From Kordiimonadaceae bacterium (GTDB lineage Bacteria > Pseudomonadota > Alphaproteobacteria > Sphingomonadales > Kordiimonadaceae): a stretch of 64,000 nt of DNA. The notes below the pieces were generated by a model that saw nothing but the letters and a program-made list of their open reading frames with translations, did not search any database and was not told where the DNA came from. The position numbers and the translations under genes are program-made. Location of the stretch: the NCBI GenBank assembly GCA_017640725.1, contig JAEPQB010000001.1, positions 1,426,001 to 1,490,000 on the forward strand, in the 5' to 3' direction. Below are positions 518 through 27,395 of the stretch, in pieces (the first letter of the stretch is position 1; the number at the start of each line of letters is the position of its first letter).

Positions 518-900
518 CGAGTGTCTCCAAATTTTGTAACAAAGTACTTTGAAATACAAAGTAACCAAATTATTCAAGAATTCAAGGTTTTCCAGTTTGA
601 TGTGCATCAAATTGTGTGGATTCTTTTCCCGAGTGGCCTAGGAAGCCATCAGTTTCGTCCAGTACGATCTAACTGGACAAGTGGTGCGCTTCAATTATGT
701 CGACGTCACGGCACAAGTTCTGCATCAAAAGGTTAGAAAAAATGTACCTATTAACCGAAAGAACATATTGTTGGGTACAGCACAAAGCAAAACATGGTGA
801 TCATGCTGCAACTACCAGAAATTGATCTTGATATTGCCAACCCTCGAAAGTGACTACAATAGCTGACCGGGGTCACTTAAAAAAACAGCGGAGCCAAATT
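518..900. other. Intergenic region between divergent genes
   Basis: This 383-bp stretch separates the minus-strand membrane gene from the plus-strand glycan operon. Apart from the inverted repeat at 545-563 I see no gene. The short open frames here have no ribosome site and no recognisable product. It presumably carries the promoter of the operon that starts at 901, but no clear -35/-10 pair stands out. Confidence 0.5.
545..563 (-). promoter_or_regulatory. Inverted repeat, candidate operator upstream of the edge gene
   Basis: TACTTTG (545-551) and CAAAGTA (557-563) form a perfect 7-bp inverted repeat with a 5-nt spacer. It lies 28 nt upstream of the start codon of the minus-strand membrane gene. 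A third half-site-like CAAAGTA overlaps the left arm at about 540-546. The position in the promoter and the dyad symmetry suggest a dimeric repressor site; the regulator is not in the window. Confidence 0.45.
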
Positions 901-2175
901 GTGACAGTTTTCTCCTCCACGGGCAGCTTAGTTTCTTCTGGCCCCAGTCTCGAAGACCTCCGGGTAGTTTATGGAGACCTGTTTAACGGTGCGCTGGCAG
1001 TGGGGCCGCCAATTCCTGGGCGGCTGTCAATAATTAACACGGCGAACCGGCCTTGGGTTGTCATGGATTTAGCGGCTGTAAAGCGCTCCTTTCGGCCCAA
1101 TTCGATCCGGGAACACTATTATTCACCCTCTCGCCGCCCGTTCGACAGTGATGGTTCAAAAACTGACCAGTTGGTGCGCTGCCATGTTAATATTGCAGAA
1201 CTCATTCAATCACTTGCCGAAGACAGGCCGGAAACTCTTTATTTGCGGGTGTCTCCGCATACACACTCGGAGCACCTTGTGGGTTTGCTCCGAGCGCAGT
1301 TTCCGAAAACGCGCGTTATCGTCGAGTTTTATGACATGAGTTGCTTGTTTGACAGACCAACGCTGAACAGTATTTTTGCTGCCGATATTGAAGCTGTTGA
1401 TAAGGCGATTTTGGGCTGCAGGGCGGCCATTCACCTTGCTGACGCTGTTGTGGTCAAGATGGGTGGCGCAGAGTTCGAGCTGTGGAAGAAAGACTTTCCA
1501 GTGTCCTTCGTATCATACTTTCCATCGTTGGAATCGGGTGCTGCTGCACCGACTAGACATGGGACAGACAACGCCCTCGGCCCACTGAAAATTTTGTATG
1601 CGGGTTCACTTAGCGCGCGCGAACTTATCGGCGGTACCGGTAGCGTACCGGGCGCAAATTTTGTCAAATACTTCGATAAACTGGCGGAAAAATCCGAATT
1701 CGAGTTGACAATTGTAAATGGTGTACATGGTAGCGAAGCGGAAGACAGCAGCGACAAATTTTTCGCTCTTCAAGCGCGTTATCAGGATCCGCCCAGATCG
1801 ACCTATCGCCGGGCCATGTCGCGAGACATATTGATTGAGTTCGCGGGCGCGTTTGATGTCGGTTTATGTTGCGCACACTACAAAGACGATGTGGTCCAGC
1901 AGGTAACACGCTTGGGGCTCCCCAATCGCATGATGTCCTACATTGCAGCAGGCCTGCCTGTGGTGATTGATGATCGGTTTAGCTATGCGGCAGACCTTGT
2001 GCGCGAATTTGGCGCTGGTCTTGTCGTCCCTGCCGGGGATTTTGAGGCGTTTTCTGCTGGCATCATCTTGATGAACACAACCCAGGCCCGCGCGGGTGTT
2101 CGCGAGCTGCGGCGCCACATGCTGGATCTCAACGCTTCTGCTGAACTTGAGCTTGGCCATGTTGCTGAAAAATAA
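901..2175 (+). CDS. Glycosyltransferase-like protein (GT-B fold)
   Basis: The product is about 424 residues. The C-terminal half has the GT-B signature context: a KILYAGSLS stretch at about residue 230, then LPNRMMSYIAAGLPVVI at about 338-354, which resembles the donor-nucleotide site of family 4-like glycosyltransferases. No signal peptide or membrane helix is seen, so a cytoplasmic or membrane-peripheral enzyme is likely. I chose GTG 901 because GGAG at 890-893 lies 7 nt upstream. An in-frame GTG at 850 would add 17 residues but has no ribosome site. It is the first gene of a dense plus-strand operon for sugar-nucleotide synthesis. Donor and acceptor are unknown. Confidence 0.7.
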   Translation: MTVFSSTGSLVSSGPSLEDLRVVYGDLFNGALAVGPPIPGRLSIINTANRPWVVMDLAAVKRSFRPNSIREHYYSPSRRPFDSDGSKTDQLVRCHVNIAELIQSLAEDRPETLYLRVSPHTHSEHLVGLLRAQFPKTRVIVEFYDMSCLFDRPTLNSIFAADIEAVDKAILGCRAAIHLADAVVVKMGGAEFELWKKDFPVSFVSYFPSLESGAAAPTRHGTDNALGPLKILYAGSLSARELIGGTGSVPGANFVKYFDKLAEKSEFELTIVNGVHGSEAEDSSDKFFALQARYQDPPRSTYRRAMSRDILIEFAGAFDVGLCCAHYKDDVVQQVTRLGLPNRMMSYIAAGLPVVIDDRFSYAADLVREFGAGLVVPAGDFEAFSAGIILMNTTQARAGVRELRRHMLDLNASAELELGHVAEK

Positions 2176-2268
2176 AAAGAAACTTATCCAATCATTCATT
2201 GAATAGTGCCACAAGTTGACTAACATGCTGCATTGGGAAGTTTCGCAAATTTTGGAGTTGTTGTCGTC

Positions 2269-2853
2269 ATGTCTCATGCTGCTACATTTTTCACGGAAGC
2301 TGGAGAAATCTGCCGCACTCTAGATGCCGAAGCTATAGATACCATGGCCGTCGAGCTGGCCGACCTTCGGGAACGCGGTGGTCGGTTGTTTTTTCTGGGT
2401 GTTGGCGGTAGCGCTGCCAATTGTGCCCACGCTGTTAATGACTTCAGGAAGCTTTGCGGGATTGAGACTTATGCACCCACTGACAATGTCTCCGAACTCA
2501 CAGCACGAACGAATGACGAGGGCTGGGATACAGTTTTCTCAGGATGGCTCGGTACCAGTCGCCTGTCAGAGCGGGATGCAATTTTTGTCCTTTCCGTAGG
2601 CGGCGGCAACGCTGAAAAGAACGTCAGCACCAATATTATTCATGCCATTGACTACGCCAAGTTAGTGGGAGCATCGGTTTTTGGTATCGTGAGCCGGGAT
2701 GGGGGTTACACGGCGCAGCACGGAGATCATGTTGTGATCGTGCCGACGGTCAATGCGGACCGCGTGACCCCGCATGCGGAGGGTTTTCAGGCAGTGATTT
2801 GGCACTGTTTGGTCTCCAACTCAGTGCTTCAGGTGCAAGCGACCAAATGGTGA
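2269..2853 (+). CDS. SIS-domain phosphosugar isomerase, GmhA-like
   Basis: The 194-residue protein is a single SIS (sugar isomerase) domain. GVGGSAANCAHAVNDF at about residues 44-59 matches the phosphosugar-binding loop of GmhA (sedoheptulose-7-phosphate isomerase), and SVGGGNAEKN at about 108-117 matches the second phosphate loop. GmhA enzymes convert a ketose phosphate into an aldose phosphate, the first step of heptose activation; LmbN does the same on an eight-carbon substrate. ATG 2269 follows GGAG at 2254-2257; an upstream TTG at 2233 is less likely. The next gene is a GmhB-like phosphatase, and a transaldolase and an HldE-like enzyme follow, so a heptose or octose phosphate substrate is inferred. 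Confidence 0.82.
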   Translation: MSHAATFFTEAGEICRTLDAEAIDTMAVELADLRERGGRLFFLGVGGSAANCAHAVNDFRKLCGIETYAPTDNVSELTARTNDEGWDTVFSGWLGTSRLSERDAIFVLSVGGGNAEKNVSTNIIHAIDYAKLVGASVFGIVSRDGGYTAQHGDHVVIVPTVNADRVTPHAEGFQAVIWHCLVSNSVLQVQATKW

Positions 2854-2885
2854 TCTTTGCTGGACACAAATAACGCGGAGGTTTC

Positions 2886-3437
2886 ATGCCAAAGCGGTGC
2901 GTATTTTTGGATAGGGATGGTGTCCTCAACAAAGCTTTTGTTCGTGGCGGCAAGTCCTATCCACCAGACACGTTAGAGGAATTTACATTGCTTCCTGGTG
3001 TAGAGGAGGCTTGCGCCGCTTTAAAGAAGGCCAACTTCCTTCTTGTTGTTGTCACGAACCAGCCGGATGTTGCTACCGGCAAGCAGCAGCGTTCGACAGT
3101 AAACGCAATGCATGCTCGGCTCCGGAATTTGATCCCCGTTGATGATATCTTTACTTGTTTTCACGTTTCCGGAGATGCATGCGACTGTCGAAAGCCGAAA
3201 CCCGGCATGATTTTCCAAGCTAGCGAAAAACACGATATTGATGTTTCTGCGAGCTATCTGGTAGGGGATCGTTGGCGCGATATCGAAGCAGGGGATGCTG
3301 CCGGGTGCGCTTCAGTTTTTATCGATCATGGCTATTCCGAAAAAAGGCCAACCACGCAGATTGCAACGATTACGAGCCTTTTGGAGGCAAGCGCTATCAT
3401 TTTGGGCGCTGAGGATGATGCAAAAAACTGGCAATAA
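2886..3437 (+). CDS. HAD phosphatase, GmhB-like (sugar 1,7-bisphosphate phosphatase family)
   Basis: A 183-residue HAD-family phosphatase. FLDRDGVLN (residues 7-15) carries the two catalytic aspartates, VVTNQ (about 55-59) is motif II, and VGDRWRDIEAG (about 125-135) is motif III/IV. CFHVSGDACDC (about 87-99) supplies the CxH and CxC zinc ligands typical of GmhB and histidinol phosphatases, followed by RKPKPGM. In heptose activation GmhB removes the 7-phosphate from the bisphosphate; LmbK plays the equivalent part in octose activation. A strong GGAGG precedes the ATG. It sits 32 bp after the SIS isomerase gene. Confidence 0.85.
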   Translation: MPKRCVFLDRDGVLNKAFVRGGKSYPPDTLEEFTLLPGVEEACAALKKANFLLVVVTNQPDVATGKQQRSTVNAMHARLRNLIPVDDIFTCFHVSGDACDCRKPKPGMIFQASEKHDIDVSASYLVGDRWRDIEAGDAAGCASVFIDHGYSEKRPTTQIATITSLLEASAIILGAEDDAKNWQ

Positions 3438-3556
3438 ATTACCGAGTTGGCCAATAACTTGCTTGGTAAGCTCGGGCGCTGAGCCCGGACAATGGCTCCC
3501 CCTGTGCCAAGCAGGCATAGTTGGGGAGGTTTTAGGGCTGAAACTGAGGGACTGCC

Positions 3557-4276
3557 ATGAGTAATTTAGAACTGAGAGTAAAGGTCTTCGCGGACGGCGC
3601 AGATCTGGGGGCAATTTGTGCACTGAATGAAAACCCCCTGATCAGTGGTTTTACCACCAACCCAACTTTGATGCGCCAGGATGGGGTTGAGGACTATGAA
3701 ACCTTTGCGCGTCAGGTTCTTGAGGTGATCACAGATAAACCCGTGTCTTTTGAAGTGTTTGCAGATGAGCTGGAAGATATGGAAAAACAGGCTCGTGTGA
3801 TTGCATCGTGGGGGGATAATGTGAATGTAAAAATCCCGGTGACCAACACGAAGCGCGAATTTGCAGGGCCAATACTTGAGCGTTTGTCCAAAGACGGTGT
3901 GTGTCTGAATGTCACGGCGTTGATGGGCCTTACGCAGGTTGAGGCTGTAGCTGGGTGCCTTGCCCCGGAAACCGCTTCTATCGTATCTGTTTTTGCCGGC
4001 CGCATCGCCGATACCGGACGAGACCCGATCCCATATATGGAAGCAGCCAAGAGGCATTTGGACCCGTTGCCGCAAGCCGAACTTTTGTGGGCAAGCCCGC
4101 GAGAGGTGCTGAATATTTATCAGGCGGACCAGGTTGGTTGCGATATCATCACGGTCACCAATAACCTGTTAAAAAAGCTAGACCTTTATGGAAAAGACTT
4201 GAGTGATTATTCGCTTGAAACGGTCGAAATGTTTTATAACGACGCATCAGCTGCCGAGTACCAGATCCGGACGTAG
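3557..4276 (+). CDS. Transaldolase-family enzyme
   Basis: A 239-residue protein of the short transaldolase / fructose-6-phosphate aldolase class. The N-terminal FADGAD and GFTTNPTLM (31-39) match the TTNP motif; NVKIPV places the Schiff-base lysine at about K92. The barrel is complete, with FAGRIADTGRDP near residue 150. Transaldolases transfer a dihydroxyacetone unit: onto erythrose 4-phosphate this gives sedoheptulose 7-phosphate, and onto ribose 5-phosphate it gives octulose 8-phosphate, as LmbR does in lincomycin synthesis. Next to a GmhA-like isomerase and a GmhB-like phosphatase, a role in supplying a C7 or C8 precursor for glycan synthesis is more likely than a housekeeping pentose-phosphate role. 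GAGGGA precedes the ATG. Confidence 0.85.
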   Translation: MSNLELRVKVFADGADLGAICALNENPLISGFTTNPTLMRQDGVEDYETFARQVLEVITDKPVSFEVFADELEDMEKQARVIASWGDNVNVKIPVTNTKREFAGPILERLSKDGVCLNVTALMGLTQVEAVAGCLAPETASIVSVFAGRIADTGRDPIPYMEAAKRHLDPLPQAELLWASPREVLNIYQADQVGCDIITVTNNLLKKLDLYGKDLSDYSLETVEMFYNDASAAEYQIRT

Positions 4277-4345
4277 TGCTCAGGAGAGCAAATAACGCCC
4301 GGCGGCAACTGTGTTGAATGATGTTACGAATTTGAAAGGACAACC

Positions 4346-5359
4346 ATGTCTGTTTGGTTTGACCATATCCTTGTTACAGGTGGAGCGGGCTATTGTGGAA
4401 GTGTGTTGGTGCCGCAGCTATTGGACCTGGGCCATAAGGTTACCGTCTACGATATTATGTATTATGGAGATGCGCATCTCCCCAAAGAACACGAAAACCT
4501 GACGATTATCAAAGGTGACATCCGCGATACCAATTTATTGGCGTCTGCCATGAAAGATGTCCATGCGGTCATCAGTCTGGCTTGTATATCTAACGACGCC
4601 AGCTTTGTTCTTGATGAAGGACTGTCGACGTCCGTTAACATGGATGCATTCGAGCCCATGGTTGCCGCGGCCAAAGCGGCGGGCGTAAAACGGTTCATTT
4701 ATGCGTCGTCAAGCTCTGTTTATGGTGTTTCGGACGAGCCTGATGTCACGGAAGACCATCCGCTTGTGCCGCTGACGCTCTACAACAAATATAAAGGGTT
4801 GTGCGAACCAGTCCTTAAGAAATACACCGACGAAAACTTCGTTGGTGTCATCTTTCGACCTGCTACCGTTTGCGGCTATGGTCCACGTCAACGGCTTGAT
4901 GTTTCTGTCAACATTCTAACGAACTTTGCTGTTAACAAAGGCATGATCAAAGTCTTTGGGGGGTCACAGTTGCGGCCCAATCTGCATATTCAGGATTATG
5001 CGGACCTTTGTAAGGTTCTGCTGACGGCGGATGACAGCGTAATCGCGGACGAAACCTTCAACTGCGGTTATGAAAACATGAGTATGATGGAGATCGCTCA
5101 TGCCGTGAAGAAAGTGGTTGAAGAGGAAATACCAAACCTCGGCGAAATAGACATCAAGACTGAGCCAACAGACGACATTCGCTCCTATCACATCAATTCT
5201 GACAAGGTGCAAAGGGTGCTTGGCTTTGCGCCGCAATATTCAGTCGAAGACGCTGTGCGCAGCCTGTGCGAAGCGTTCCGGGAGGGTAAACTGCCCAATA
5301 GTTTTGACGACGATCGCTATTTCAATTTGCGTACGATGCAGGCGATGGGGGCCAAATGA
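4346..5359 (+). CDS. NAD-dependent epimerase/dehydratase (extended SDR)
   Basis: A 337-residue extended SDR enzyme. The nucleotide-binding TGGAGYCG lies at residues 11-18; the catalytic Ser triad member is in YASSSSVYG (119-127), and the YxxxK pair is Y146/K150. FRPATVCGYGPRQR near residue 170 is typical of nucleotide-sugar epimerases and dehydratases. The substrate is probably the activated sugar made by the neighbouring isomerase, kinase and nucleotidyltransferase, but this is inference. AAGGA precedes the start, and the stop overlaps the next SDR gene (ATGA), which implies translational coupling. Confidence 0.82.
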   Translation: MSVWFDHILVTGGAGYCGSVLVPQLLDLGHKVTVYDIMYYGDAHLPKEHENLTIIKGDIRDTNLLASAMKDVHAVISLACISNDASFVLDEGLSTSVNMDAFEPMVAAAKAAGVKRFIYASSSSVYGVSDEPDVTEDHPLVPLTLYNKYKGLCEPVLKKYTDENFVGVIFRPATVCGYGPRQRLDVSVNILTNFAVNKGMIKVFGGSQLRPNLHIQDYADLCKVLLTADDSVIADETFNCGYENMSMMEIAHAVKKVVEEEIPNLGEIDIKTEPTDDIRSYHINSDKVQRVLGFAPQYSVEDAVRSLCEAFREGKLPNSFDDDRYFNLRTMQAMGAK

Positions 5360-6351
5360 GCAGCAAACCAATAGCAACAGTCACCGGCGGCTGCGGATTT
5401 ATCGGCAGCCATATGGTCGACTTGCTGGTGACGCATGGCTTCACTGTCAATGTGGTCGACAACCTCGTCGGTGGCCGGACAGCGAATATTGAGCATCATG
5501 GTGAGAACGGTGATGTCCGCTTCTTTAACATGGATATTCGCGACCTAGAGCCGGGTCATGAAGCCTTCGGCGGCGTGCGTTTCGTTTTTCATTTTGCCGG
5601 CATCGGCGACATTGTGCCGTCCATCGAGCGCCCGGTCGAATATATGTCTGTTAACGTGCAAGGCACGGTGAAGGTGCTGGAATGTGCCAGGGCCGCTGGC
5701 GCTCAAAAATTGGTCTATGCGGCTTCTTCATCCTGTTATGGCCTTGCGGATGTACCGACAGACGAAGCGCATCTAATTGATACCAAATATCCGTACGCTC
5801 TTTCAAAATATCAGGGCGAACAGGCGGTATTACATTGGCAAAAAGTATATGGCCTGCCCGCCAACTGCATCCGGATTTTCAATGCTTATGGAACCCGATC
5901 CCGAACATCTGGTGCCTACGGCGCAGTTTTCGGCGTGTTTCTAAAGCAAAAGCTTGAAGGCGCGCCTTTGACAATCGTGGGAGATGGTTTCCAAACACGG
6001 GATTTTCTGTATGTGACCGATGTGGCGAGGGCCTTCTATGCTGCCGCTGACACTGACATAGCTGGCGAAATCTATAACTTAGGCGCAGGCAAGCCCCAAA
6101 GTGTGAACCACCTGGCATCGCTTCTGGGAGGAGAGACCGTCTTTATCCCCAAACGCCCGGGCGAGCCGGATTGTACTTGGGCGAATATCTCAAAGATCAC
6201 CAGCGAGCTGAACTGGCAACCAAAAGTAAGTTTCGAGGAGGGTGTTGAACGCATCCTTGACAATATAGACTATTGGCGTGACGCGCCGCTCTGGAACACC
6301 AAAAACATCGCTGAAGCGACGAAGACCTGGTTCCAGTATATGCAGGAGTAG
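5356..6351 (+). CDS. NAD-dependent nucleotide-sugar epimerase (GalE/WbpP-like SDR)
   Basis: A 331-residue extended SDR. TGGCGFIG at residues 10-17 binds NAD; the active site is in YAASSSCYG (121-129) and YALSK (Y147/K151). DGFQTRDFLYVTDVARA near 210-226 and the overall layout resemble UDP-hexose and UDP-N-acetylhexosamine 4-epimerases. LmbM of the lincosamide pathway, which epimerises a GDP-octose, belongs to the same superfamily. It overlaps the previous gene by 4 nt. The substrate is not readable from sequence. Confidence 0.82.
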   Translation: MSSKPIATVTGGCGFIGSHMVDLLVTHGFTVNVVDNLVGGRTANIEHHGENGDVRFFNMDIRDLEPGHEAFGGVRFVFHFAGIGDIVPSIERPVEYMSVNVQGTVKVLECARAAGAQKLVYAASSSCYGLADVPTDEAHLIDTKYPYALSKYQGEQAVLHWQKVYGLPANCIRIFNAYGTRSRTSGAYGAVFGVFLKQKLEGAPLTIVGDGFQTRDFLYVTDVARAFYAAADTDIAGEIYNLGAGKPQSVNHLASLLGGETVFIPKRPGEPDCTWANISKITSELNWQPKVSFEEGVERILDNIDYWRDAPLWNTKNIAEATKTWFQYMQE

Positions 6352-6355
6352 AACG

Positions 6356-7936
6356 ATGGATGATGGCAGCCGCAATCTGGTCTCACAGAAGATCAAGTCG
6401 AAGGAGCAGTTGGCGCAAATCCTGGGCTCCCGACCGCGCGACAAGAAAGTGATCATTTGCCACGGCACCTTTGATGTGGTGCACCCTGGCCATGTGCGCC
6501 ACCTGCTCTATGCCAAAAGTAAAGCGGATATCCTGGTAGCCAGCCTGACCTGCGACCAGCATGTCACCAAGGCCGAAATGCGCCCTTATGTGCCAGAAGA
6601 TTTGCGCGCTATCAACCTGGCAGCGTTTGAAATGGTTGACCATGTGATCATTGACGAGAACGCGACACCGATTGAAACTATCAAGTTTTTGGAGCCAGAC
6701 TATTTCGCAAAAGGCTACGAATATGTTGCGGGCAACATTCCTCCCAAAACTCAGGAGGAAATGGACGCGCTCGACACCTATGGCGGTGAAATGATCTTTA
6801 CGCCAGGAGACGTGGTCTACAGCTCATCGCGGTTCATCGAGACATCTCCGCCCAACATCAGCACAGAAAAGCTGATGTTGCTTATGCAGGCCGAGGGGTT
6901 TTCCTTTGATGGACTTCGGTCTGCGCTCGCTGATTTCTCGGGAATGAAAGTGCATATTGTCGGCGATACGATCGTCGATACCTTCACCCGCTGTTCCATG
7001 ATCGGTGGTATGACCAAGACACCAACTATGAGCGTGCGTTACGAGGACAAGGAAGACTATGTCGGCGGCGCTGGCATTGTTGCCAAGCATTTGTGTGCGG
7101 CCGGTGCTGACGTCACATTTTCTACCGTGCTGGGCGACGATGCGCTGGCCGAATTCGTGTTAGACGACCTTGAAGCTGCTGGCGTAGATGTTCAGCCGAT
7201 CATTGACCCGACCCGACCAACCACTAACAAAAATGCCTTTGTTGCCAGCGATTATCGTCTTTTGAAATTGGATACACTCGATAACCGATCAATTTCCGGC
7301 AAGATCGTAAGACAGCTTCAGGAGCAAATCGCAGAGGCGCCGACGGATGTTGTTGTATTTAGCGACTTCCGCCACGGTATTTTCAATAAACATACAATTG
7401 GTGATCTCATCGCTGCAATTCCAGAAAGTGCATTCCGTGTTGCAGATAGCCAAGTTGCCAGCCGATGGGGCAACATAACAGAATTCAAGGGCTTTGACCT
7501 CATTACGCCAAACGAGCGCGAAGCAAGGTTTGCACTAGGTGACCAAGATTCTGTGGTTCGGCCACTCGCCACCGACCTCTTCAGTGCCGCCCAGTGCAAG
7601 ACCCTTATCCTGAAGCTGGGGGAGCGAGGTATCTTGACATATCGAACGCGACCCGATGGAGACCCCCGAACGATCATTTCCATAGATAGTTTTGCCCAAA
7701 ACGTGGCTGACGCTGTTGGTGCTGGGGATGCGCTTTTGGCCTATGCGTCGCTTGCCATGGCCAAAACCGGCAACGAAGCACTTGCGTCGGTTCTTGGTTG
7801 TATCGCGGCCGGGCTTGAATGTGAGTATGATGGCAATGTTACGGTGAAACCTCAGGCAATCTACGCACGTCTGGATCAGCTGGAAGCCGAAAGTCGTTAT
7901 AGCGTACAGGCAGCATTAACGCCGCCAATATCATGA
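6356..7936 (+). CDS. Bifunctional nucleotidyltransferase-PfkB sugar kinase, HldE-like with reversed domain order
   Basis: The 526-residue protein has an N-terminal nucleotidyltransferase domain (about 28-165) with HGTFDVVHPGHV at 36-47, including the HxGH motif. A C-terminal PfkB/ribokinase domain (about 180-515) follows, with VGDTIVDTF near 200, GGAG near 240 and DAVGAGDA near 449-456, the catalytic GAGD. HldE carries the same two domains in the opposite order (kinase first). The pair would phosphorylate the anomeric carbon of a sugar phosphate and, after the GmhB-like phosphatase acts, attach a nucleotide. LmbP and LmbO divide the same tasks. ATG 6356 with GGAG 8 nt upstream is preferred; longer frames run into the previous gene. 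The activating nucleotide (ADP, GDP or CDP) cannot be told. Confidence 0.85.
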   Translation: MDDGSRNLVSQKIKSKEQLAQILGSRPRDKKVIICHGTFDVVHPGHVRHLLYAKSKADILVASLTCDQHVTKAEMRPYVPEDLRAINLAAFEMVDHVIIDENATPIETIKFLEPDYFAKGYEYVAGNIPPKTQEEMDALDTYGGEMIFTPGDVVYSSSRFIETSPPNISTEKLMLLMQAEGFSFDGLRSALADFSGMKVHIVGDTIVDTFTRCSMIGGMTKTPTMSVRYEDKEDYVGGAGIVAKHLCAAGADVTFSTVLGDDALAEFVLDDLEAAGVDVQPIIDPTRPTTNKNAFVASDYRLLKLDTLDNRSISGKIVRQLQEQIAEAPTDVVVFSDFRHGIFNKHTIGDLIAAIPESAFRVADSQVASRWGNITEFKGFDLITPNEREARFALGDQDSVVRPLATDLFSAAQCKTLILKLGERGILTYRTRPDGDPRTIISIDSFAQNVADAVGAGDALLAYASLAMAKTGNEALASVLGCIAAGLECEYDGNVTVKPQAIYARLDQLEAESRYSVQAALTPPIS

Positions 7937-7973
7937 TTGGCCGTGTTTGGACGGAAATGAGGAGTGAAATCGG

Positions 7974-8900
7974 GTGCGGGTAATTGTACTGGGTCTGGGA
8001 GTGCAGGGCCACAAGCGGCGCGATGTTGCGGGCGCGGACTGTATCGGCGTTGTTGACCCCTATAATGAATTGGCTGGTTTTCGCCATGTGGCTGACGTTC
8101 CATTGGGCACGTATGATGCTGCGCTGGTTTGCGCGCCCGATAGCGCCAAAGTCGAGGTGCTTACATATCTTCTATCGAATGGAAAGCATGTGCTGGTTGA
8201 AAAGCCTTTAGTTGGCGAAAGTACAGCTGCCCTCACGTCGCTTGCCGATATCGCGCGACAAAAAGGCCTGTGCTGTTACACGGCCTATAATCACAGGTTC
8301 GAACCGCATTTCATGCGCATGAAGGAAACCATAGACCAGGGCACTCTCGGGCAGGTCTATAGTGTGCGCCTATTTTACGGAAACGGGACGGCAAGGCTGG
8401 TGCGCGACTCTGCCTGGCGCGACACAGGTGCAGGCGTTTTGCCTGATCTGGGGTCCCACCTTCTAGACACGCTTGCCTTCTGGTTTGGACGTCCGAGTGA
8501 CGCGTTTCACATAATTTCCGCCAACCGCTTTGAGAATTTGGCGCCTGACCATGTTGTGTTTGGTGCGAATGGTGCGATCCGGATGGAAGCGGAAATGACG
8601 CTGCTGAGCTGGCGCAATCATTTCACTGCCGATGTGCTCGCGGAAAAAGGTAGTGCGCATATTTCTTCGCTCTGCAAGTGGGGGCCCACAAGTTTCACGG
8701 TGCGCGATCGCAAGTTACCCAGCGGCCGACCAGAAGAGCAAACCGTTACACTTGTCGAACCTGATCCGACATGGCGGGCCGAGTATGATCATTTCAAAAC
8801 CTTGTGCGAAACGGGTGGCACCAATATCGGCGGGGATATTTGGATTCTGGAAACCCTGGCCAAGCTGGCCGCGGAAATACCAGCGGGGCCAGCAGAATGA
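7974..8900 (+). CDS. Gfo/Idh/MocA-family oxidoreductase
   Basis: A 308-residue NAD(P)-dependent oxidoreductase. GLGVQG at residues 7-12 is the dinucleotide-binding loop, and VEKPL (75-79) is the family's EKP motif. The C-terminal domain contains DTGAGVLPDLGSHLLDTLAFW (about 146-166), which includes the catalytic Asp/His helix. These enzymes oxidise or reduce one hydroxyl or keto carbon of a sugar. LmbZ/CcbZ of lincosamide synthesis belongs here and works with the dehydrogenase-like LmbL, a homologue of which is encoded next in this operon. The start is GTG with GAGGAG about 9 nt upstream. The stop overlaps the next ATG. Confidence 0.82.
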   Translation: MRVIVLGLGVQGHKRRDVAGADCIGVVDPYNELAGFRHVADVPLGTYDAALVCAPDSAKVEVLTYLLSNGKHVLVEKPLVGESTAALTSLADIARQKGLCCYTAYNHRFEPHFMRMKETIDQGTLGQVYSVRLFYGNGTARLVRDSAWRDTGAGVLPDLGSHLLDTLAFWFGRPSDAFHIISANRFENLAPDHVVFGANGAIRMEAEMTLLSWRNHFTADVLAEKGSAHISSLCKWGPTSFTVRDRKLPSGRPEEQTVTLVEPDPTWRAEYDHFKTLCETGGTNIGGDIWILETLAKLAAEIPAGPAE

Positions 8901-10174
8901 GCGAGATTGCCGTCGCCTACATCGGCATGACTCACTTGGGGGTTAACTCGGCTGTTGCTGCCGCAGCACGCGGAATGCAAGTAACCTGTTTCGATCCTGA
9001 TGAGGAGGTAGTGGAGGCGCTAAATGCTGGTGTGCCTCCAGTAACCGAACCTCAACTTGAACATTTTATGCGTGAAAATGAAGAGCGGCTGACCTTTACG
9101 GCTGATAAGGCGTCACTGCGCAGTGCTGATGTGGCGATTGTCGCACCTGATGTCCCCACTGATGATGAAGGCAATAGCGATCTTTCAGGCCTGAAAAATC
9201 TTCTCGCCCTGGCCGACACCAATCTGGGTCCCGCCATCCCGCTTATTGTTCTAAGCCAGGTGCCACCAGGGTTTAGTCGTTCACTTGCACTCGAAAGCGG
9301 CCGCCCATTTTATTGCCAGGTTGAAACCCTCATTTTTGGTCAGGCTGTCGAGCGTGCGCTAAACCCAGAACGTATTATTTTTGGCGCTGCCGCGCCTGAC
9401 GCGCCCATACACCCCTCTTACCAGGCTTTTCTCAACCGGTTTGATTGCCCGTTGTTACCCATGCGGTATGAAAGTGCGGAACTTGCGAAAATCGCGATCA
9501 ATTGCTGTTTGGTTTCTTCCATCAGTGTTGCAAATACATTGGGGGAATTGTGCGAAAAAATTGGTGCTGATTGGTCTGAAATTGCACCTGCGCTAAAGCT
9601 CGACCGCAGGATCGGCCAGTATGCCTATCTTTCACCAGGGCTTGGCATTGCAGGCGGGAATCTGGAGCGCGACCTGAATACGGTGATGCGCTACGCCTCC
9701 GCCTACGGCACCGATGCCGGGGCGGTCGAGGCATGGGTGCGCAACAGTCGATATCGCCGCGACTGGGTTCTTAGGCTCCTGCATGATCAGTTGCTGGACT
9801 ATGCCCCAAACCCGAAAATCGTGGTGTGGGGGCTTGCATACAAGCAGGACACACACTCCACCAAGAATTCGCCGGCACTCGCACTGATTGATCACCTTGG
9901 CGCTTTTGGCCTATCTGCCTATGACCCGGTGGTACCGGTGTCTGCTGTTCTCAATCGCGCGCTGGAGCAGAAGCAATCGGCACTCGACGCCTGCGAAGGC
10001 GCTGATATTCTGATCATCATGACCCCATGGGAAGAATTCAAAGACACAGCGCCAGCAGATATTAAAGCACATATGGCTGGCAGCATCATTGTTGACCCCT
10101 ATGGAGTTTTAGATACCAATGCCTGTACTGCACAGGCGCTGCAGCATTTTACGCTGGGGCGGGCAAACGTATAA
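8897..10174 (+). CDS. UDP-sugar 6-dehydrogenase homologue lacking the catalytic cysteine
   Basis: A 425-residue protein with the three-domain UDP-glucose/GDP-mannose dehydrogenase layout. Residues 1-30 bind NAD, AELAKIAIN (195-203) keeps the conserved Lys198 and Asn202, and GLAYKQDT near 310-320 matches the C-terminal nucleotide-sugar domain. The active-site loop, normally GFGGSCFPKD, reads GIAGGNLERD (250-259), so the Cys that forms the thiohemiacetal is Asn255. Without Cys a four-electron oxidation to a uronic acid is unlikely; a single oxidation of a secondary alcohol to a ketone is more plausible, as proposed for LmbL. ATG 8897 overlaps the previous stop; a longer frame from 8804 lies inside the upstream gene. 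Confidence 0.83.
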   Translation: MSEIAVAYIGMTHLGVNSAVAAAARGMQVTCFDPDEEVVEALNAGVPPVTEPQLEHFMRENEERLTFTADKASLRSADVAIVAPDVPTDDEGNSDLSGLKNLLALADTNLGPAIPLIVLSQVPPGFSRSLALESGRPFYCQVETLIFGQAVERALNPERIIFGAAAPDAPIHPSYQAFLNRFDCPLLPMRYESAELAKIAINCCLVSSISVANTLGELCEKIGADWSEIAPALKLDRRIGQYAYLSPGLGIAGGNLERDLNTVMRYASAYGTDAGAVEAWVRNSRYRRDWVLRLLHDQLLDYAPNPKIVVWGLAYKQDTHSTKNSPALALIDHLGAFGLSAYDPVVPVSAVLNRALEQKQSALDACEGADILIIMTPWEEFKDTAPADIKAHMAGSIIVDPYGVLDTNACTAQALQHFTLGRANV

Positions 10175-10191
10175 AGATTAAGGGATTTTTC

Positions 10192-11073
10192 ATGCTCACT
10201 CATACATTTGATTCTCCGCAGAAGCTGGCTCGTGTCGTTCTTTTGGGCGGCAGCGGCTTTGTTGGACAGGCGATTGAAGCTGCTTTGGAAAAGACGAATA
10301 CGCCTGTAAAGTCTTTCTCCTCAGCGGAACTGGATTTGTCCGCCGAAACTGCGGTAGATCAGTTGGCAGGCGAACTTCACAAAAATGACCGCCTGGTGAT
10401 CCTTTCCGCGTTGACGCCAGACAAGGGGCGCGACATTGCCACCTTCATGAAAAACCTCAAAATGATTGAAACGGTTTGTGCCGCTGTTGGCAAAGCGCCT
10501 GTTCAACAAATCGTCTATTTCTCATCAGACGCCGTATATCCGCTCGGCGATAGTCCTGTCAGTGAAGCAAGCGCTGCAGCGCCTGCTGATCTCTACGGTG
10601 CGATGCATCTGGCGCGCGAACTCATGCTAAAGGACACAGCGGGTGACAAACTTGTAGTCTTGAGGCCAACACTCATATACGGCGCCGACGATAGTCATAA
10701 CTCCTATGGCCCAAACCGGTTCCGCCGGTTGGCCGCTAAAGAGGGGAAGATCACGATTGGCGGCAAGGGAGAAGAGACTCGCGACCATGTTTTCGTGGAG
10801 GATGTGGCTGAAATTGTAACCCTGGTCCTGGGTCATGGCTCCACCGGTGTGTTGAATGTTGCCACTGGCAGCTCCGTCGATTTCGGCGCATTGGCGCACA
10901 TGGTCGCTAGTCTGTTTGGCGACGGTGTGGAAATCTGCCCGACAGAACGCAATATGCCGGTCACACATCGCCATTTTGATATAACTGCCACGCGAAAAGC
11001 ATTTCCGGAGTTTCAGTTTGCATCCCTCGAGGAGGGCCTCAGGAAGGCACACAAAGAATTCTCGGACAGCTGA
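10192..11073 (+). CDS. NAD-dependent epimerase/dehydratase family protein with YxxxH
   Basis: A 293-residue extended SDR. LLGGSGFVG (17-25) binds the cofactor and YFSSDAVYP (109-117) is the Ser region. The catalytic pair reads Y135-G-A-M-H139, with His where nearly all SDR enzymes have Lys. RPTLIYGADDSHNSYGPNRF follows near 158-177, as in dTDP-sugar reductases and epimerases. Either the His serves the same role in this subfamily or the reaction differs. AAGGGA precedes the ATG. The stop overlaps the start of the methyltransferase gene (TGATG). Confidence 0.78.
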   Translation: MLTHTFDSPQKLARVVLLGGSGFVGQAIEAALEKTNTPVKSFSSAELDLSAETAVDQLAGELHKNDRLVILSALTPDKGRDIATFMKNLKMIETVCAAVGKAPVQQIVYFSSDAVYPLGDSPVSEASAAAPADLYGAMHLARELMLKDTAGDKLVVLRPTLIYGADDSHNSYGPNRFRRLAAKEGKITIGGKGEETRDHVFVEDVAEIVTLVLGHGSTGVLNVATGSSVDFGALAHMVASLFGDGVEICPTERNMPVTHRHFDITATRKAFPEFQFASLEEGLRKAHKEFSDS

Positions 11074-11753
11074 TGCCAGAGTTTAATCTGCTCAAATCGG
11101 TTCCCAGCGTCCGCCGAGATGTGTCGGCAAGGCTGCAGAACAAAGAACGCAACCGGGCGATTTCGCTCGCCTTTGGTGAGGCTTATTTTGATGGACCACG
11201 TGAGCAGGGATATGGTGGCTACACGTATGATGGTCGTTGGGTGCCAGTTGCCGAGGCCGCACGTGACCATTACGGATTGAAATCAGGCCAGTCGGTCCTT
11301 GATGTCGGCTGCGCCAAGGGTTTTTTTGTCTATGACCTGATGCAGGTGGTGCCCGGACTAGACGCTTGCGGGGTTGATATTTCCGACTACGCCCTCACCA
11401 ACGCCAAGCCAGAGGTAAAACACCGCCTGCAGCAGAGTAGCGCCGACAATCTGCCATTTGAGGACGATAGCTTTGACGCCGCATTTTCGATCAACACCAT
11501 CCATAACTTGGACCGCGATGGGTGCATAAGGACTTTGCGCGAAATGAACCGGGTTGTGAAGGATCCTAGCAATTGCTTTGTTCAGGTGGATGCTTATCGA
11601 AACGAAGAGGAAAAAAACCTGTTCGAAGCCTGGATGTTAACGGCAAAAACATATGGTACACCTGAGGATTGGCGGAAAATCTTTGAGGATGCCAACTACG
11701 TCGGGGACCATTTCTGGACGATTTTGGAGTTTGAAGACCAGGTCCAGCTTTGA
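11073..11753 (+). CDS. SAM-dependent methyltransferase
   Basis: A 226-residue class I methyltransferase. VLDVGCAKGFF at 75-85 is motif I, GVDISDYAL near 100 is motif II, and LPFEDDSFDAAFSINTIHNL (about 127-146) is the methyltransferase type 11 core. A preceding region with YFDGPREQGYGGY (38-50) is shared almost word for word with the methyltransferase at 19542-20249, so the two are paralogues. O- or C-methylation of a sugar or carrier-linked glycan is inferred from the operon. It starts within the stop of the previous gene. Confidence 0.83.
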   Translation: MPEFNLLKSVPSVRRDVSARLQNKERNRAISLAFGEAYFDGPREQGYGGYTYDGRWVPVAEAARDHYGLKSGQSVLDVGCAKGFFVYDLMQVVPGLDACGVDISDYALTNAKPEVKHRLQQSSADNLPFEDDSFDAAFSINTIHNLDRDGCIRTLREMNRVVKDPSNCFVQVDAYRNEEEKNLFEAWMLTAKTYGTPEDWRKIFEDANYVGDHFWTILEFEDQVQL

Positions 11754-11766
11754 GGGAGACAACAGA

Positions 11767-12453
11767 ATGAGCGACGAGAGCACAAAAGAGTCTCAATATA
11801 ATATCGCGCTTGACTATGCGCGAGAGCGTGGATTGGAGCAGATGGGCCTGATGACCAGCCAAGCCTGGTACGATGACCCACGGCGCCTCACATTTACGCT
11901 GGCGCGCTACAAATTTGTTTCGAAAATGTTCGCGAGTAAAAAGCACGCCTTGGAAGTGGGGTGTGCAGACGCTTTTGGAACTCGCATCGTGTGCCAGGAA
12001 GTAGAAAAAGTCACGGCAACGGACTTTGACCCCCTATTCGTTAAAGACGTTCAAGACAGAATGAATGATCGCTGGCGCTTCGAATGTCTGGTCCACGACA
12101 TGCTCGATGGACCGATGCCCGGTGCATATGACTGCATGTATGCGCTTGATGTTCTTGAACATATTGAAAATACAGACGAAGACGTTTTTATCAAAAATAT
12201 GATTGCACCGCTCGACCAAGATGGTGCGATTATCCTCGGAATGCCGTCACTTGAAAGCCAGGACTATGCTTCACCCATTTCCAAAGAGGGGCACGTAAAT
12301 TGCAAGACGATGCCTGAGTTTAAGGAGTTGATGGAAAAATACTTCAAGAATGTCTTCATGTTTTCCATGAATGATGAAATTGTCCACACCGGTTATCACA
12401 AGATGGCGCATTATCTGTTTGCGCTGGGTTGTAGCAAACGCGAGGAATTTTGA
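11767..12453 (+). CDS. SAM-dependent methyltransferase
   Basis: A 228-residue class I methyltransferase with ALEVGCADAFGTRIV at 61-75 (motif I), TDFDP at 85-89 and YALDVLEHIEN near 125-135, the layout of methyltransferase types 11/12/23 that act on sugars and quinones. It is not closely similar to the previous gene's product. ATG 11767 follows GAGGGAG of the previous gene's end; a longer frame from 11653 overlaps that gene and lacks support. Probably modifies the glycan made by this operon. Confidence 0.8.
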   Translation: MSDESTKESQYNIALDYARERGLEQMGLMTSQAWYDDPRRLTFTLARYKFVSKMFASKKHALEVGCADAFGTRIVCQEVEKVTATDFDPLFVKDVQDRMNDRWRFECLVHDMLDGPMPGAYDCMYALDVLEHIENTDEDVFIKNMIAPLDQDGAIILGMPSLESQDYASPISKEGHVNCKTMPEFKELMEKYFKNVFMFSMNDEIVHTGYHKMAHYLFALGCSKREEF

Positions 12454-12457
12454 CCTA

Positions 12458-14218
12458 ATGAAGCACGCGGAGTTTGCCCCGGAGATCGAGAGCTTTGGCC
12501 GCCACTTGTCGACCATTGTTGAGCAAGAGGATCTCTATGGCGCGCTGAATATGACAAAAGCGGATTTCGACATTGTCGATTTCCTGCTCGAGATCGATTC
12601 ACACTATGTGAATGTCCAAGAATTTGTTGATCATATTGATATTGCTTTCATCAAGCGCCAGCTCGAAGCCCACCTTGGCGCGGGCACGTCTTCCGGAAGA
12701 AGACTGGTAGTGGCCCCTTCGTCACCGCTCTTTGACACCGTCTTGCAAGACATGAGTGAGCACTTTGAGAATGTGGCTTTTATCGACAAGCATCGCGGCG
12801 GCACACCGGTTGGGGGACACACAATTGAAGCATCAGACACTTTTGAAGTCTGTCCTGATGACCTGTGCCTGATACTAACTCGCAATACCGAAGCGGCAGC
12901 CGCCTATCAGAACCAGTTTGGTGCACAGAACTGTGTCAATTTCCTGAAGGTTTTTGATCGCGAAAAGATGGCTCGATCCGCGCCGCAATTGAATGACTTT
13001 ATTGGCAAGGTGAATGCAACCGAAAAACCGATCTTGTTTTCAAGCCCACGCCCGATGGGTACGGTTGCCTCGACAATTCGCGAACTTGGTCGGCGCGGCT
13101 ATTCACCTTTCTGGCTTGGGGCCGAAGAGGTCAAAGAAGACCATCAGATTGGCTATTCAACACCCCGTGTCAGTGATGTTGCGTTTATGGGCTATCACAT
13201 CGGTGGCCTTCTAGATAACTTGCGGACCTTCACCAGCCTGACACACGGAACGGTCTTGTTTCACTTTGAAGCTATCTATCCACCCAATTGGGACTTTAAC
13301 CGGGTAGCAATCTGCTATGCAGCAACGCTTGCGATGATACGAACTGTTAAGGATTGCCGGAAGACAGGCTCCTCTGCTCGTTTTGCCCTCTATATGTATG
13401 ACGCGATCAAGCCGGGTGTGAAAAACTACCATATGGGCGGTTCCTGTGGGCGGCTCTATAAAGCCATGATGGCGGAGGCCGAAGCCATCATTTTCAGTTC
13501 CTACACGGAACCCTTTGGTGATTTTGTTTCTAACGCAGTGGGAAAGGACCTTCCTCGCGTTCACTGCCACCGTTATCAAGTGATGCCCAAGAATCGCCAA
13601 CCTCGCCTTACAGATGCGTATCACATCGCGATCATTTCCGTGTTGCTAGAGGAATTCTGGGAACCTTCGCGCATGGGTATTGTTCCTTACGTCAGGGAAA
13701 TTATCGGTCAGGGAGTCCACGTCCATTATTATGCGGGTGACGTGAACCACCCGAAGCTCGCTGAATTTCGCATGTCCATTCCTGCTGACCGGAGGCACCA
13801 GTTCCATTTACATAAGCCGATCCATGACCTTGACGAGCTTTCGAGCGAGCTGAGCCAGTATCACGCCGGTTGGAGCTTGTTCAACATGCAAATTTTTAAT
13901 GACATGACGACGCACCTTGATGACCAGTTTACCAGCGATGCCATGGAAATGTTCACACCGACAACGTTGCCTTCTGTTATCTGGACCTGCGCTGCAGCTG
14001 GCCTGCCCATCATTTGCAACCGGTCCATGCGCGGGGTTGTTGATATGTTACCTGAGGGAATGACGCTGCCGCTCTCACTTTCAGAACTTGGCAACTTGAA
14101 AAATATTCTCGACACGCTGGATTGGGAAAAAATTGATGCCACGTCATTAGACGGGCTCGATATCGCCAATCAGATACACAAACTTTCTGACTTTCTGGAA
14201 GAACTCCATGCCGCCTAA
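12458..14218 (+). CDS. Large glycosyltransferase-like protein, paralogue of 21570-23414
   Basis: A 586-residue protein without signal peptide or clear membrane helix. The middle has MYDAIKPGVKNYHMGG near residue 310, and the C-terminal third has SVIWTCAAAGLPIICNRSMRGVVDMLPEGM near 505-535, a GT-B donor-site-like pattern. The same blocks in the same order, with the LDWEK-type ending, occur in the product of the minus-strand gene at 21570-23414, so the pair defines a local family. The N-terminal 120 residues are not recognised. ATG 12458 is preferred over an upstream in-frame ATG inside the previous gene. Glycosyl transfer is inferred from the C-terminal pattern and the neighbours only. Confidence 0.62.
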   Translation: MKHAEFAPEIESFGRHLSTIVEQEDLYGALNMTKADFDIVDFLLEIDSHYVNVQEFVDHIDIAFIKRQLEAHLGAGTSSGRRLVVAPSSPLFDTVLQDMSEHFENVAFIDKHRGGTPVGGHTIEASDTFEVCPDDLCLILTRNTEAAAAYQNQFGAQNCVNFLKVFDREKMARSAPQLNDFIGKVNATEKPILFSSPRPMGTVASTIRELGRRGYSPFWLGAEEVKEDHQIGYSTPRVSDVAFMGYHIGGLLDNLRTFTSLTHGTVLFHFEAIYPPNWDFNRVAICYAATLAMIRTVKDCRKTGSSARFALYMYDAIKPGVKNYHMGGSCGRLYKAMMAEAEAIIFSSYTEPFGDFVSNAVGKDLPRVHCHRYQVMPKNRQPRLTDAYHIAIISVLLEEFWEPSRMGIVPYVREIIGQGVHVHYYAGDVNHPKLAEFRMSIPADRRHQFHLHKPIHDLDELSSELSQYHAGWSLFNMQIFNDMTTHLDDQFTSDAMEMFTPTTLPSVIWTCAAAGLPIICNRSMRGVVDMLPEGMTLPLSLSELGNLKNILDTLDWEKIDATSLDGLDIANQIHKLSDFLEELHAA

Positions 14219-15215
14219 GACTCAGCCAATTGATCCTCTGGCCAGTGAAAACCATGAAACGCTACTTCGGTTGCATGAAGAGCTTCTTAGAGTGCGCCAC
14301 GCCGAACTTGCTTTGGCGGAGCGGTACAAGCAGCAAGAGATGCGCACCCCGACCCACTTTGGGGTCGGTCAGGAGGCTGTGGCAGTCGGTGTATGCGCCG
14401 CCCTTGAAAAAACAGATGTGGCCTACAGCCATCATCGATCCCACAACCATTTTCTGGCCAAGGGCGGCAGTGTTTATCGACTGGCAGCAGAACTTTTTGG
14501 GCGCGAGACCGGCTGTTCCCGCGGACGCGGCGGATCCGTTCACCTGACAGATTTATCATGTGGTTTTGTAGCATCCAGCGCCATTCTTGGAGAGGCCATG
14601 TCCGCCGCAACGGGCAGTGCACTTGCGTTCAGGCTTGGAAATGAAAAGCGTATAGCGACGGCTTTCTTTGGTGACGCGGTGGCAGAGGAAGGCGCCTTCT
14701 ATGAGTGCCTGAGTTATGCGGCGCTCAAAAAGCTTCCCGTTCTTTATGTGTGCGAGAACAATGGCTATGCGACAGAAAGCCCATTATCTATCAGACAACC
14801 TGCGGGGGCGGATATTAGTGGCCGCGTGGCCAGTTTTGGCGTCAGGACCATTAAGGCCGAAGGCAATGACGTGCTTGCCGTATTGACGGCCGCCCGCGAG
14901 GCAGTTGCATATTTGCGCACAGAGGGAACACCCGTTTTCCTTGAGTGCGCCACGTACCGCTGGCTTGAGCATGTTGGCCCGTTTTACGATCACGAGCTTG
15001 GCCGCACCTACCGCACCGAACAGGAAGTTGCTGGTTGGCAAGATAAATGTCCTGTCATCAAAAGCCGTGCCGCCATTTTGGAAGCGGGTGCAGCTGACGA
15101 GGCAACGCTTGATAAGATGCAAACAGATATTCAAGCAGTCATTCAGGCAGACATCGAGAAAGCCTACGGCGATCCCTGGCCGGATCCTCAACAGCTATTT
15201 GACAATATCTATTAG
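14208..15215 (+). CDS. Thiamine-diphosphate enzyme, E1 alpha subunit type (PdhA/AcoA-like)
   Basis: A 335-residue protein matching the alpha subunit of 2-oxoacid dehydrogenase E1. FGVGQEAVAVGV (51-62), YSHHRSHNHFLAKGG (73-87) and GCSRGRGGSVHL (102-113) are family hallmarks. The ThDP motif runs from GDA (155-157) to the ENN at 183-185. It overlaps the preceding gene by 11 nt and is followed by the beta subunit. No lipoyl E2 or E3 gene is near, and the other genes make glycans, so classic acyl-CoA formation is unlikely. Adding a two-carbon unit from pyruvate to a keto-sugar, or an acyloin reaction, is a testable alternative. Confidence 0.85.
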   Translation: MPPKTQPIDPLASENHETLLRLHEELLRVRHAELALAERYKQQEMRTPTHFGVGQEAVAVGVCAALEKTDVAYSHHRSHNHFLAKGGSVYRLAAELFGRETGCSRGRGGSVHLTDLSCGFVASSAILGEAMSAATGSALAFRLGNEKRIATAFFGDAVAEEGAFYECLSYAALKKLPVLYVCENNGYATESPLSIRQPAGADISGRVASFGVRTIKAEGNDVLAVLTAAREAVAYLRTEGTPVFLECATYRWLEHVGPFYDHELGRTYRTEQEVAGWQDKCPVIKSRAAILEAGAADEATLDKMQTDIQAVIQADIEKAYGDPWPDPQQLFDNIY

Positions 15216-15238
15216 GCCTAGACGGAACGAGGGCGCCA

Positions 15239-18539: not shown

Positions 18540-18678
18540 TGCCTGTGGCCTCTTGCCATGACCTGCCCAAGCGCGCCACTAGTGACACGTTTTCCCGGTC
18601 GTGGTGCAGCATTCAAATCATTTCTGTTTCAAGAAAAAAATCAATTTATTTATATGCTTAATCCACTAATGTTAGCGT

Positions 18679-20249: not shown

Positions 20250-20280
20250 CAGGTGAGCAGGCATTTGGCGGAGGCTGAAA

Positions 20281-27370: not shown

Positions 27371-27395
27371 TAACTACGCAGGCGGCCAACCACGA

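Follow-up and report, generated by a model that had tools for sequence, protein, structure and literature searches.

A putative higher-carbon, C2-branched sugar pathway in a surface-glycan operon of a Kordiimonadaceae bacterium

The window, a 64,000-nucleotide stretch from a Kordiimonadaceae bacterium, carries an operon of 15 plus-strand genes extending from about 850 to 16270, from the glycosyltransferase-like GT1 through E1a/E1b, the two subunits of a thiamine diphosphate (ThDP) enzyme (Table 1). We propose, with a probability of roughly 0.6, that this operon makes a nucleotide-activated sugar of seven or eight carbons (C7/C8) that is oxidised at C6, given a two-carbon (C2) branch and methylated, for use in a surface glycan. 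Its core is a cassette encoding a sugar-phosphate isomerase of the SIS family (SIS), a GmhB-like phosphatase, a transaldolase (TAL), two extended short-chain dehydrogenases/reductases (SDR1 and SDR2), a nucleotidyltransferase-kinase fusion (NTK), a Gfo/Idh/MocA oxidoreductase (GFO) and a UDP-glucose dehydrogenase-like protein (UGD). The initial annotation had named these genes and placed the operon at 2269-10174; we found them all there, adjoining one another on the plus strand, but the operon reaches further and adds SDR3, the methyltransferases MT1 and MT2, GT2 and E1a/E1b. The ThDP enzyme pair and a relation to a gene cluster linked to bradyrhizose had been left out, and both point to a two-carbon branch rather than to an amino-octose. 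The make-up of the gene set, the families and residues of its products, their conservation and their co-occurrence can be read directly from the sequences. To our knowledge, few of the glycans described so far contain higher-carbon or C-branched sugars.

Distribution and conservation of the cassette

A scan of genome contigs with three UGD-like queries gave 235 confirmed relatives, and the best 80 form the set of loci compared here, many of which end at contig ends. Besides the UGD-like gene, present in all 80 by construction, homologues of the window genes were found for GFO in 76 loci, NTK and SDR3 in 75 each, SDR2 in 72, MT1 in 66, SDR1 in 65, TAL in 55, the GmhB-like phosphatase in 48 and SIS in 43. 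Where at least 7.5 kb was available upstream of the UGD-like gene (55 loci), the counts for TAL, GmhB and SIS were 49, 44 and 38. The order SDR2-NTK-GFO-UGD was kept in all 66 of the 80 loci that carry the four genes on one strand, which makes the cassette more than a chance assembly, and the complete eight-gene order from SIS to UGD was seen in 30 of 34 loci.

The record labels span 11 phyla (Pseudomonadota 63, Acidobacteriota 6, Nitrospirota 3 and eight others with one each), although the records are mostly metagenome assemblies, phylum labels that occur once may be binning errors and the label Bordetella parapertussis on L058, L105 and L114 is doubtful. One cultured bearer of the cassette is Nisaea denitrificans DSM 18348. 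In the TAL tree, the window, the same-genus genome G564 and two Acidobacteriota grouped at 99, and the same rows were nearest to the window in the SIS tree, a pattern that suggests transfer of the cassette between phyla. Within the genus, the cassette was present in 2 of 19 genomes, the window's own included; several of these genomes are incomplete, and they were screened by searching for the GmhA and HldE-kinase families and inspecting the hits rather than with the cassette's SIS model. G564 (L187) has the identical 15-gene set in the identical order. A plasmid collection searched with the UGD-like protein at E 1e-60 gave no match, and our searches of open-licence PMC papers brought up no earlier description of the cassette in the titles, abstracts and excerpts seen. 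At one locus (L037:165-9248, G053), the cassette genes are flanked by two radical-SAM-like open reading frames, recognised by eye.

Transaldolase and isomerase

TAL scores above the cut-off of TIGR02134 (Table 1), a threshold passed in only 5 of the 299 genomes searched in the phylum. An active site with Glu and Phe is that of a transaldolase rather than of a fructose-6-phosphate aldolase, and Glu66 and Phe146 are present in all 60 cassette-type rows, as are Lys92, Arg149 and Arg182, likewise transaldolase residues; all five are also found in 30 of 30 other transaldolases and thus indicate the type of reaction and not the substrate. In the TAL tree, the cassette rows lie on one side of a branch at 99, apart from the housekeeping transaldolases compared. 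Four duplicate rows had been removed before this tree was built; its 61 rows labelled "cassette" include a stand-alone gene (L033) and the duplicate pair L035/L103, and the 26 rows labelled "hk" include two cassette-linked divergent transaldolases (L008 and L011). The genome of the window has a second, separate transaldolase.

The SIS protein does belong to the SIS family, as first proposed, but its likeness to GmhA is distant (50.3 bits against an equivalog cut-off of 209.45). The top PDB matches of its AlphaFold model (pLDDT 92.4) are GmhA structures, 1tk9 and 2x3y, and mutants of GmhA at D61, H64 and Q175 are among the entries matched. Compared with five GmhA rows, Asp is replaced by Asn at N51 (47 of 48 cassette rows), Glu by Asp at D58 (48 of 48) and Gln by Glu at E171 (48 of 48), all at active-site positions of GmhA; His54 and His179 are kept. 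The cassette forms compared also show two insertions that make extra loops. The 48 cassette rows stand together on one side of a branch at 99, apart from the GmhA rows compared, in a tree that has long branches among the GmhA rows and was used solely for the split between the cassette and other sequences. A GmhA-family search of the window's own genome gave no match besides the cassette SIS.

The two proteins occur together. The SIS model matches 7 of the 299 genomes at E 1e-30, and four genomes have both it and a TIGR02134 transaldolase (Fisher P value 5e-7, or 2e-5 excluding the window's own genome). In the three SIS genomes that lack TIGR02134, a divergent transaldolase adjoins the GmhB-like gene or lies one gene away, and two of the three also carry NTK-SDR3-GFO-UGD, although the pieces can sit on different contigs. 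As the divergent type falls across the deepest branch of the TAL tree from the cassette type, a transaldolase seems to have been recruited twice, and this apparent double recruitment suggests that the transaldolase reaction is needed. Clustering with housekeeping enzymes had been named at the outset as a possible refutation of a higher-carbon nucleotide-sugar pathway in a surface-glycan locus; the separate TAL and SIS groups and their co-occurrence across genomes support such a pathway.

Three further arrangements were seen around transaldolase genes. A stand-alone TIGR02134 transaldolase in a 0.9-Mb genome (G179, L033:17528-18283), the fifth of the genomes above that family's cut-off, is nested within the cassette transaldolases and has perhaps been reused in central metabolism. 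In G105 (L038:2778-8053), a flagellin-like open reading frame, recognised by eye, lies a few kilobases from the genes for a GmhB-like protein and a divergent transaldolase, a hint that flagellin may be glycosylated there. In G292 (L034:7451-11028), SIS, GmhB-like and TAL genes directly follow GHMP kinase-like and HddC-like genes; judged by eye, the front end of the cassette is here coupled to an activation pair of the GDP-heptose type.

The NTK protein is a fusion, as first described, with the nucleotidyltransferase at the N terminus and the kinase at the C terminus. TIGR02199 covers residues 26-162 and TIGR02198 residues 191-503, both with scores below their cut-offs, and the Pfam families are PfkB and CTP_transf_like, as in HldE. 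In HldE the kinase domain comes first; the order is reversed in NTK, which scores 153.9 bits against an HldE cut-off of 521. The operon thus shares with the ADP- and GDP-heptose pathways (GmhA, HldE, GmhB and HldD; HddA/HddC) the logic of isomerase, 1-kinase, phosphatase and nucleotidyltransferase, while it differs in its scores below the family cut-offs, its separate tree groups, and its added transaldolase and later enzymes. That these are ordinary lipopolysaccharide (LPS)-core ADP-heptose housekeeping genes in a glycan island is hardly credible and was rejected: SIS, the phosphatase and NTK do resemble GmhA, GmhB and HldE, but all three fall below the curated equivalog cut-offs, TAL and SIS group separately, the presence among same-genus genomes is sparse and the set also holds TAL, UGD-like, GFO and ThDP enzymes.

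A different matter is a true heptose pathway, in which TAL would top up sedoheptulose 7-phosphate and SIS, NTK and the phosphatase would give an ADP- or CDP-heptose that is later oxidised, branched and methylated. The SIS fold is nearest to GmhA, NTK to HldE and the phosphatase to GmhB, and the trio beside GHMP kinase-like and HddC-like genes in G292 fits it as well. We nevertheless consider it rather unlikely. As sedoheptulose 7-phosphate belongs to ordinary metabolism and another transaldolase is encoded in the genome, a dedicated one would be superfluous, yet it was apparently recruited twice; the three substitutions and two loops of SIS set it apart from GmhA, too. Sedoheptulose 7-phosphate would hardly call for a transaldolase of its own together with an altered isomerase, and on these sequence features we favour C8 over C7 by about two to one.

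The Cys-less dehydrogenase, the ThDP enzyme and the bradyrhizose-linked cluster

The claim of a UGD homologue without its Cys was borne out: in an alignment to 3gg2, the position of the catalytic Cys is taken by Asn255. Asn is found there in 84 of 85 rows (the window and 84 locus rows, of which L035 and L103 come from the same genome), and Lys198, Asn202 and Asp259 in all 85. The protein falls within the TIGR03026 subfamily (Table 1) and lacks the Cys of a UDP-glucose 6-dehydrogenase. In these enzymes the Cys is needed for the second oxidation, which turns the aldehyde into the acid; where C6 bears a secondary alcohol, the case in sugars of at least seven carbons, that step would not be needed. 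The substitution fits a dehydrogenase that oxidises a secondary C6 hydroxyl. The only row with Cys is L147:3961-5268, upstream of the window, the genome's own ordinary UDP-glucose dehydrogenase with GGSCFPKD intact.

Two kinds of two-subunit ThDP enzyme, separated by best BLAST match only, accompany the cassette: a split transketolase in 45 of the 80 loci and one or both genes of an E1-like pair in 21. No locus has both kinds, and 14 have neither. Among the 61 loci with at least 6 kb downstream, 38 have a split transketolase, 16 an E1-like enzyme and 7 neither. The operons of the window and of G564 both end with the E1a/E1b pair, and the proteins scanned around the window's pair include no E2 or E3; in forming an E1-like pair in a sugar-nucleotide cluster without E2/E3, they agree with the alpha-KADH2 C2-branching enzymes. 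E1b matches NF008854 at 144-460 of 464, leaving unmatched the part of the model ahead of E1-beta, which contains the lipoyl region. An ordinary pyruvate dehydrogenase role is made less likely by scores below the pyruvate dehydrogenase cut-offs (Table 1) and by the other E1-alpha homologues of the genome, the best with 32% identity.

E1-like pairs have been proposed to put C2 branches on keto sugars (excerpts of PMC4753412, PMC10338323 and PMC12247030), and for split transketolases the excerpted text of PMC12247030 describes a proposed role in adding hydroxyacetyl branches, as yet untested in vitro, and 13 putative sequences that all come from streptomycetes. AviB1/AviB2, Pau11/Pau12 and EvdU5/EvdS3 (alpha-KADH2) and the split transketolases of miharamycin and amipurimycin are, in those excerpts, like the cassette in placing an E1-like pair or a split transketolase in a sugar-nucleotide cluster. 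The same part of PMC12247030 assigns alpha-KADH2 enzymes and transketolases to secondary metabolites and YerE-like enzymes to LPS, whereas the E1-like and split-transketolase enzymes of the cassette stand in surface-glycan loci, mostly of Pseudomonadota (63 of 80).

The initial annotation had likened the gene set to the lincosamide octose pathway and held that all its enzyme classes were present. This does not extend to activation: LmbP is a GHMP kinase and LmbO an HddC-like enzyme, whereas the operon has a PfkB and CTP_transf_like fusion. The roles common to the operon and the lincosamide pathway (LmbR, N, P, K, O, M, L, Z and S) are those of transaldolase, isomerase, phosphatase, epimerase, dehydrogenase and oxidoreductase (roles as given in excerpts of PMC4351081 and PMC12945683), and LmbR is reported to form an octulose phosphate from ribose 5-phosphate (PMC5854111, in excerpt). 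The operon adds the ThDP enzyme, and no pyridoxal phosphate (PLP) aminotransferase was found among the 15 operon proteins scanned, in agreement with what had been noted. No lincosamide cluster was recognised among the 80 loci kept. By analogy, then, the resemblance holds for enzyme classes and roles, not for the kinase and nucleotidyltransferase families. An unbranched lincosamide-like octose, with E1a/E1b serving something else such as acyl-group supply, would account for the roles matched by class, but we regard it as quite improbable: a two-subunit ThDP enzyme is present in 66 of 80 loci and its two kinds are mutually exclusive, as expected of one required step, G564 retains the pair at the end of its operon, and the aminotransferase is missing from the proteins scanned.

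Bradyrhizose is a ten-carbon (C10) bicyclic monosaccharide (PMC9912281, in excerpt). Its genes were called unknown in 2016, when an insertion in gdh, one gene of an eleven-gene cluster of photosynthetic Bradyrhizobium, was found to abolish the O-antigen, with polar effects possible according to the authors (excerpts of PMC4743980). We located the cluster with the published gdh forward primer as a degenerate pattern, which matches 11 of 265 genomes in the genus of G035; in L132 both gdh primers match exactly, about 380 bp apart. Photosynthetic reaction-centre genes are present in 10 of the 11 genomes, and the genus is inferred to be Bradyrhizobium. The L132 cluster counts eleven genes, namely those for an NTK-like fusion, an HddC-like nucleotidyltransferase, an SDR1 homologue, SIS, gdh (195 bits to dTDP-glucose 4,6-dehydratase), a split transketolase (two genes), a Zn alcohol dehydrogenase, HAD-like and APH-like proteins (both by eye) and an MT1 homologue.

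Identities between this cluster and the window are 44% for SDR1, 41% for MT1, 33% for NTK and 28% for SIS, and the split transketolases of the 45 cassette loci share 37-44% of residues with that of the cluster (lowest single value 32%). Its SIS has all three active-site changes in 11 of 11 genomes. In the SIS tree, the grouping of the bradyrhizose rows reaches no more than 86. The bradyrhizose-linked cluster differs in having the HddC-like nucleotidyltransferase, the Zn alcohol dehydrogenase and the HAD-like and APH-like proteins, and the window has an E1-like pair where that cluster has a split transketolase. The 20-kb regions around the cluster contained no transaldolase, UGD-like or Gfo/Idh gene. 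Conversely, the window lacks the combination of gdh and split transketolase, its nearest counterpart of gdh being SDR2 at 23%; among the 80 loci, a gdh-like gene also accompanies the split transketolase in 16 and an E1-type enzyme in 8. Identity of the window cassette with the bradyrhizose cluster was rejected, as gene content differs and the gdh-primer peptides were not found in the cassette genes, all their matches in the window lying outside these. The sugars made by the two pathways may well differ.

Operon layout and proposed pathway

Table 1. Genes of the operon, and SDR4 downstream of it, with window coordinates and supporting matches
Gene	Assignment	Coordinates	Strand	Support
GT1	Glycosyltransferase-like; first gene of the operon	850..2175	+	Pfam GT group 1 matches below gathering score
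SIS	Sugar-phosphate isomerase (ketose-aldose), subfamily distinct from GmhA	2269..2853	+	Pfam SIS_2
GmhB	GmhB-like HAD-IIIA phosphatase	2886..3437	+	NF006506 129.5 bits (cut-off 178); TIGR01656 125.3 bits (cut-off 84.15)
TAL	Transaldolase, TIGR02134 type	3557..4276	+	337 bits (cut-off 281.95)
SDR1	Extended SDR	4346..5359	+	Pfam Epimerase; 44% to SDR of bradyrhizose-linked cluster
SDR2	Extended SDR (GalE-like)	5356..6351	+	Nearest solved structures include UDP-glucose 4-epimerases
NTK	N-terminal HldE-type nucleotidyltransferase, C-terminal PfkB kinase	6356..7936	+	TIGR02199, TIGR02198
GFO	Gfo/Idh/MocA oxidoreductase	7974..8900	+	PF01408, PF22725
UGD	UGD-like dehydrogenase, catalytic Cys replaced by Asn255	8897..10174	+	TIGR03026 218.4 bits (cut-off 189.8)
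SDR3	Extended SDR	10192..11073	+	Pfam Epimerase; 75/80 loci
MT1	S-adenosylmethionine (SAM) methyltransferase	11073..11753	+	41% to methyltransferase of bradyrhizose-linked cluster; 66/80 loci
MT2	SAM methyltransferase	11767..12453	+	9/80 loci
GT2	Large protein, perhaps a glycosyltransferase	12458..14218	+	Same position in G564; 1/80 loci
E1a	Pyruvate-dehydrogenase-E1-alpha-like ThDP subunit	14208..15215	+	PF00676; TIGR03182 268.7 bits (cut-off 393.85)
E1b	E1-beta-like subunit	15239..16270	+	NF006667 289.9 bits (cut-off 321)
SDR4	Possible branch reductase, membership uncertain	18679..19542	+	16/80 loci, 25-38% identity

A GT1 homologue stands at the matching position in G564 (44% over 371 columns). 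NCBIfam and Pfam profile searches gave no match for GT2, which has a distant paralogue at 21570-23414 of the window (24% over 513 columns), also without a Pfam match; the two are possibly an undescribed glycosyltransferase family. MT1 has a paralogue at 19539-20249 with 45% identity. More glycan genes lie at 16254-29162, among them those for a TPR protein with a TIGR04372 glycosyltransferase domain, a sulfotransferase-like protein, an FkbM methyltransferase domain and a CTP_transf_3 cytidylyltransferase. SDR4 was dropped as a core part because it was not found in L187; 15 of the 16 loci that bear it also carry a split transketolase.

In the following scheme, we infer from the sequences all substrates and products, the order of the steps, the length of the carbon chain, and where the branch sits and what it consists of. 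With fructose 6-phosphate or sedoheptulose 7-phosphate as donor, TAL would pass a dihydroxyacetone unit on to an aldose phosphate; the likeliest acceptor is ribose 5-phosphate, which would give octulose 8-phosphate (C8), and a less likely one is erythrose 4-phosphate (C7). SIS would convert the ketose phosphate into an aldose phosphate, the kinase half of NTK would phosphorylate C1, the GmhB-like phosphatase would take off the terminal phosphate and the nucleotidyltransferase half of NTK would form the nucleoside diphosphate (NDP)-sugar. The UGD-like enzyme, without the Cys for a second oxidation, would then turn the secondary C6 alcohol into a ketone, and GFO and the SDRs may oxidise, reduce or epimerise the remaining positions. 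E1a/E1b, without E2/E3, would take an acetyl unit from pyruvate and attach it to a keto group, giving a tertiary alcohol with a C2 branch, which could be reduced by an SDR; after methylation by MT1 and MT2, the glycosyltransferases of the locus would attach the sugar to a surface glycan.

Several observations weigh against this scheme. In the stretch available at the 55 loci with sufficient upstream sequence, TAL is absent in 6, SIS in 17 and GmhB in 11; 7 of the 61 loci with enough downstream sequence have no ThDP enzyme recognisable by similarity, and best BLAST match was the sole basis for separating the two ThDP kinds. The E1a/E1b pair could belong to an ordinary 2-oxoacid dehydrogenase, though the genome has other E1-alpha homologues. 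The family name of TIGR02134 is simply transaldolase, the residues checked are identical in housekeeping transaldolases and the sequence does not choose ribose 5-phosphate over erythrose 4-phosphate. Some same-genus relatives have clear GmhA or HldE matches, so heptose chemistry exists within the genus. Finally, a TIGR02134 search of the 11 bradyrhizose-linked genomes gave 0 of 11, which implies that this transaldolase is not used for a related C10 sugar; with SIS and NTK in that cluster, its pathway may start from C7, and its SIS carries the same changes as the cassette's in spite of the missing transaldolase, which speaks against C8 in particular.

The sum of C8 and C2 is the carbon count of bradyrhizose. 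Only tentatively, we extend the proposed branched-sugar pathway to a horizontally shared cassette that may build a C10-class sugar by two serial C-C steps, a transaldolase leading to a C8 NDP-octose and a ThDP enzyme of either the E1-like or the split-transketolase kind, the two being interchangeable, adding the C2 branch to a keto group. Bradyrhizose would in that case represent a wider and so far unrecognised family of higher-carbon sugars of the cell surface, branched or bicyclic. If true, a portable cassette spreads higher-carbon and C-branched sugars among distant bacteria, and the bradyrhizose pathway, whose genes the excerpted text of PMC4743980 called unknown in 2016, would be open to gene-by-gene testing. 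The split transketolases and E1-like pairs, treated in the excerpted part of a 2025 review as enzymes of secondary metabolism (PMC12247030), would gain many relatives from surface glycans, and such ThDP enzymes could possibly be useful for making tertiary alcohols.

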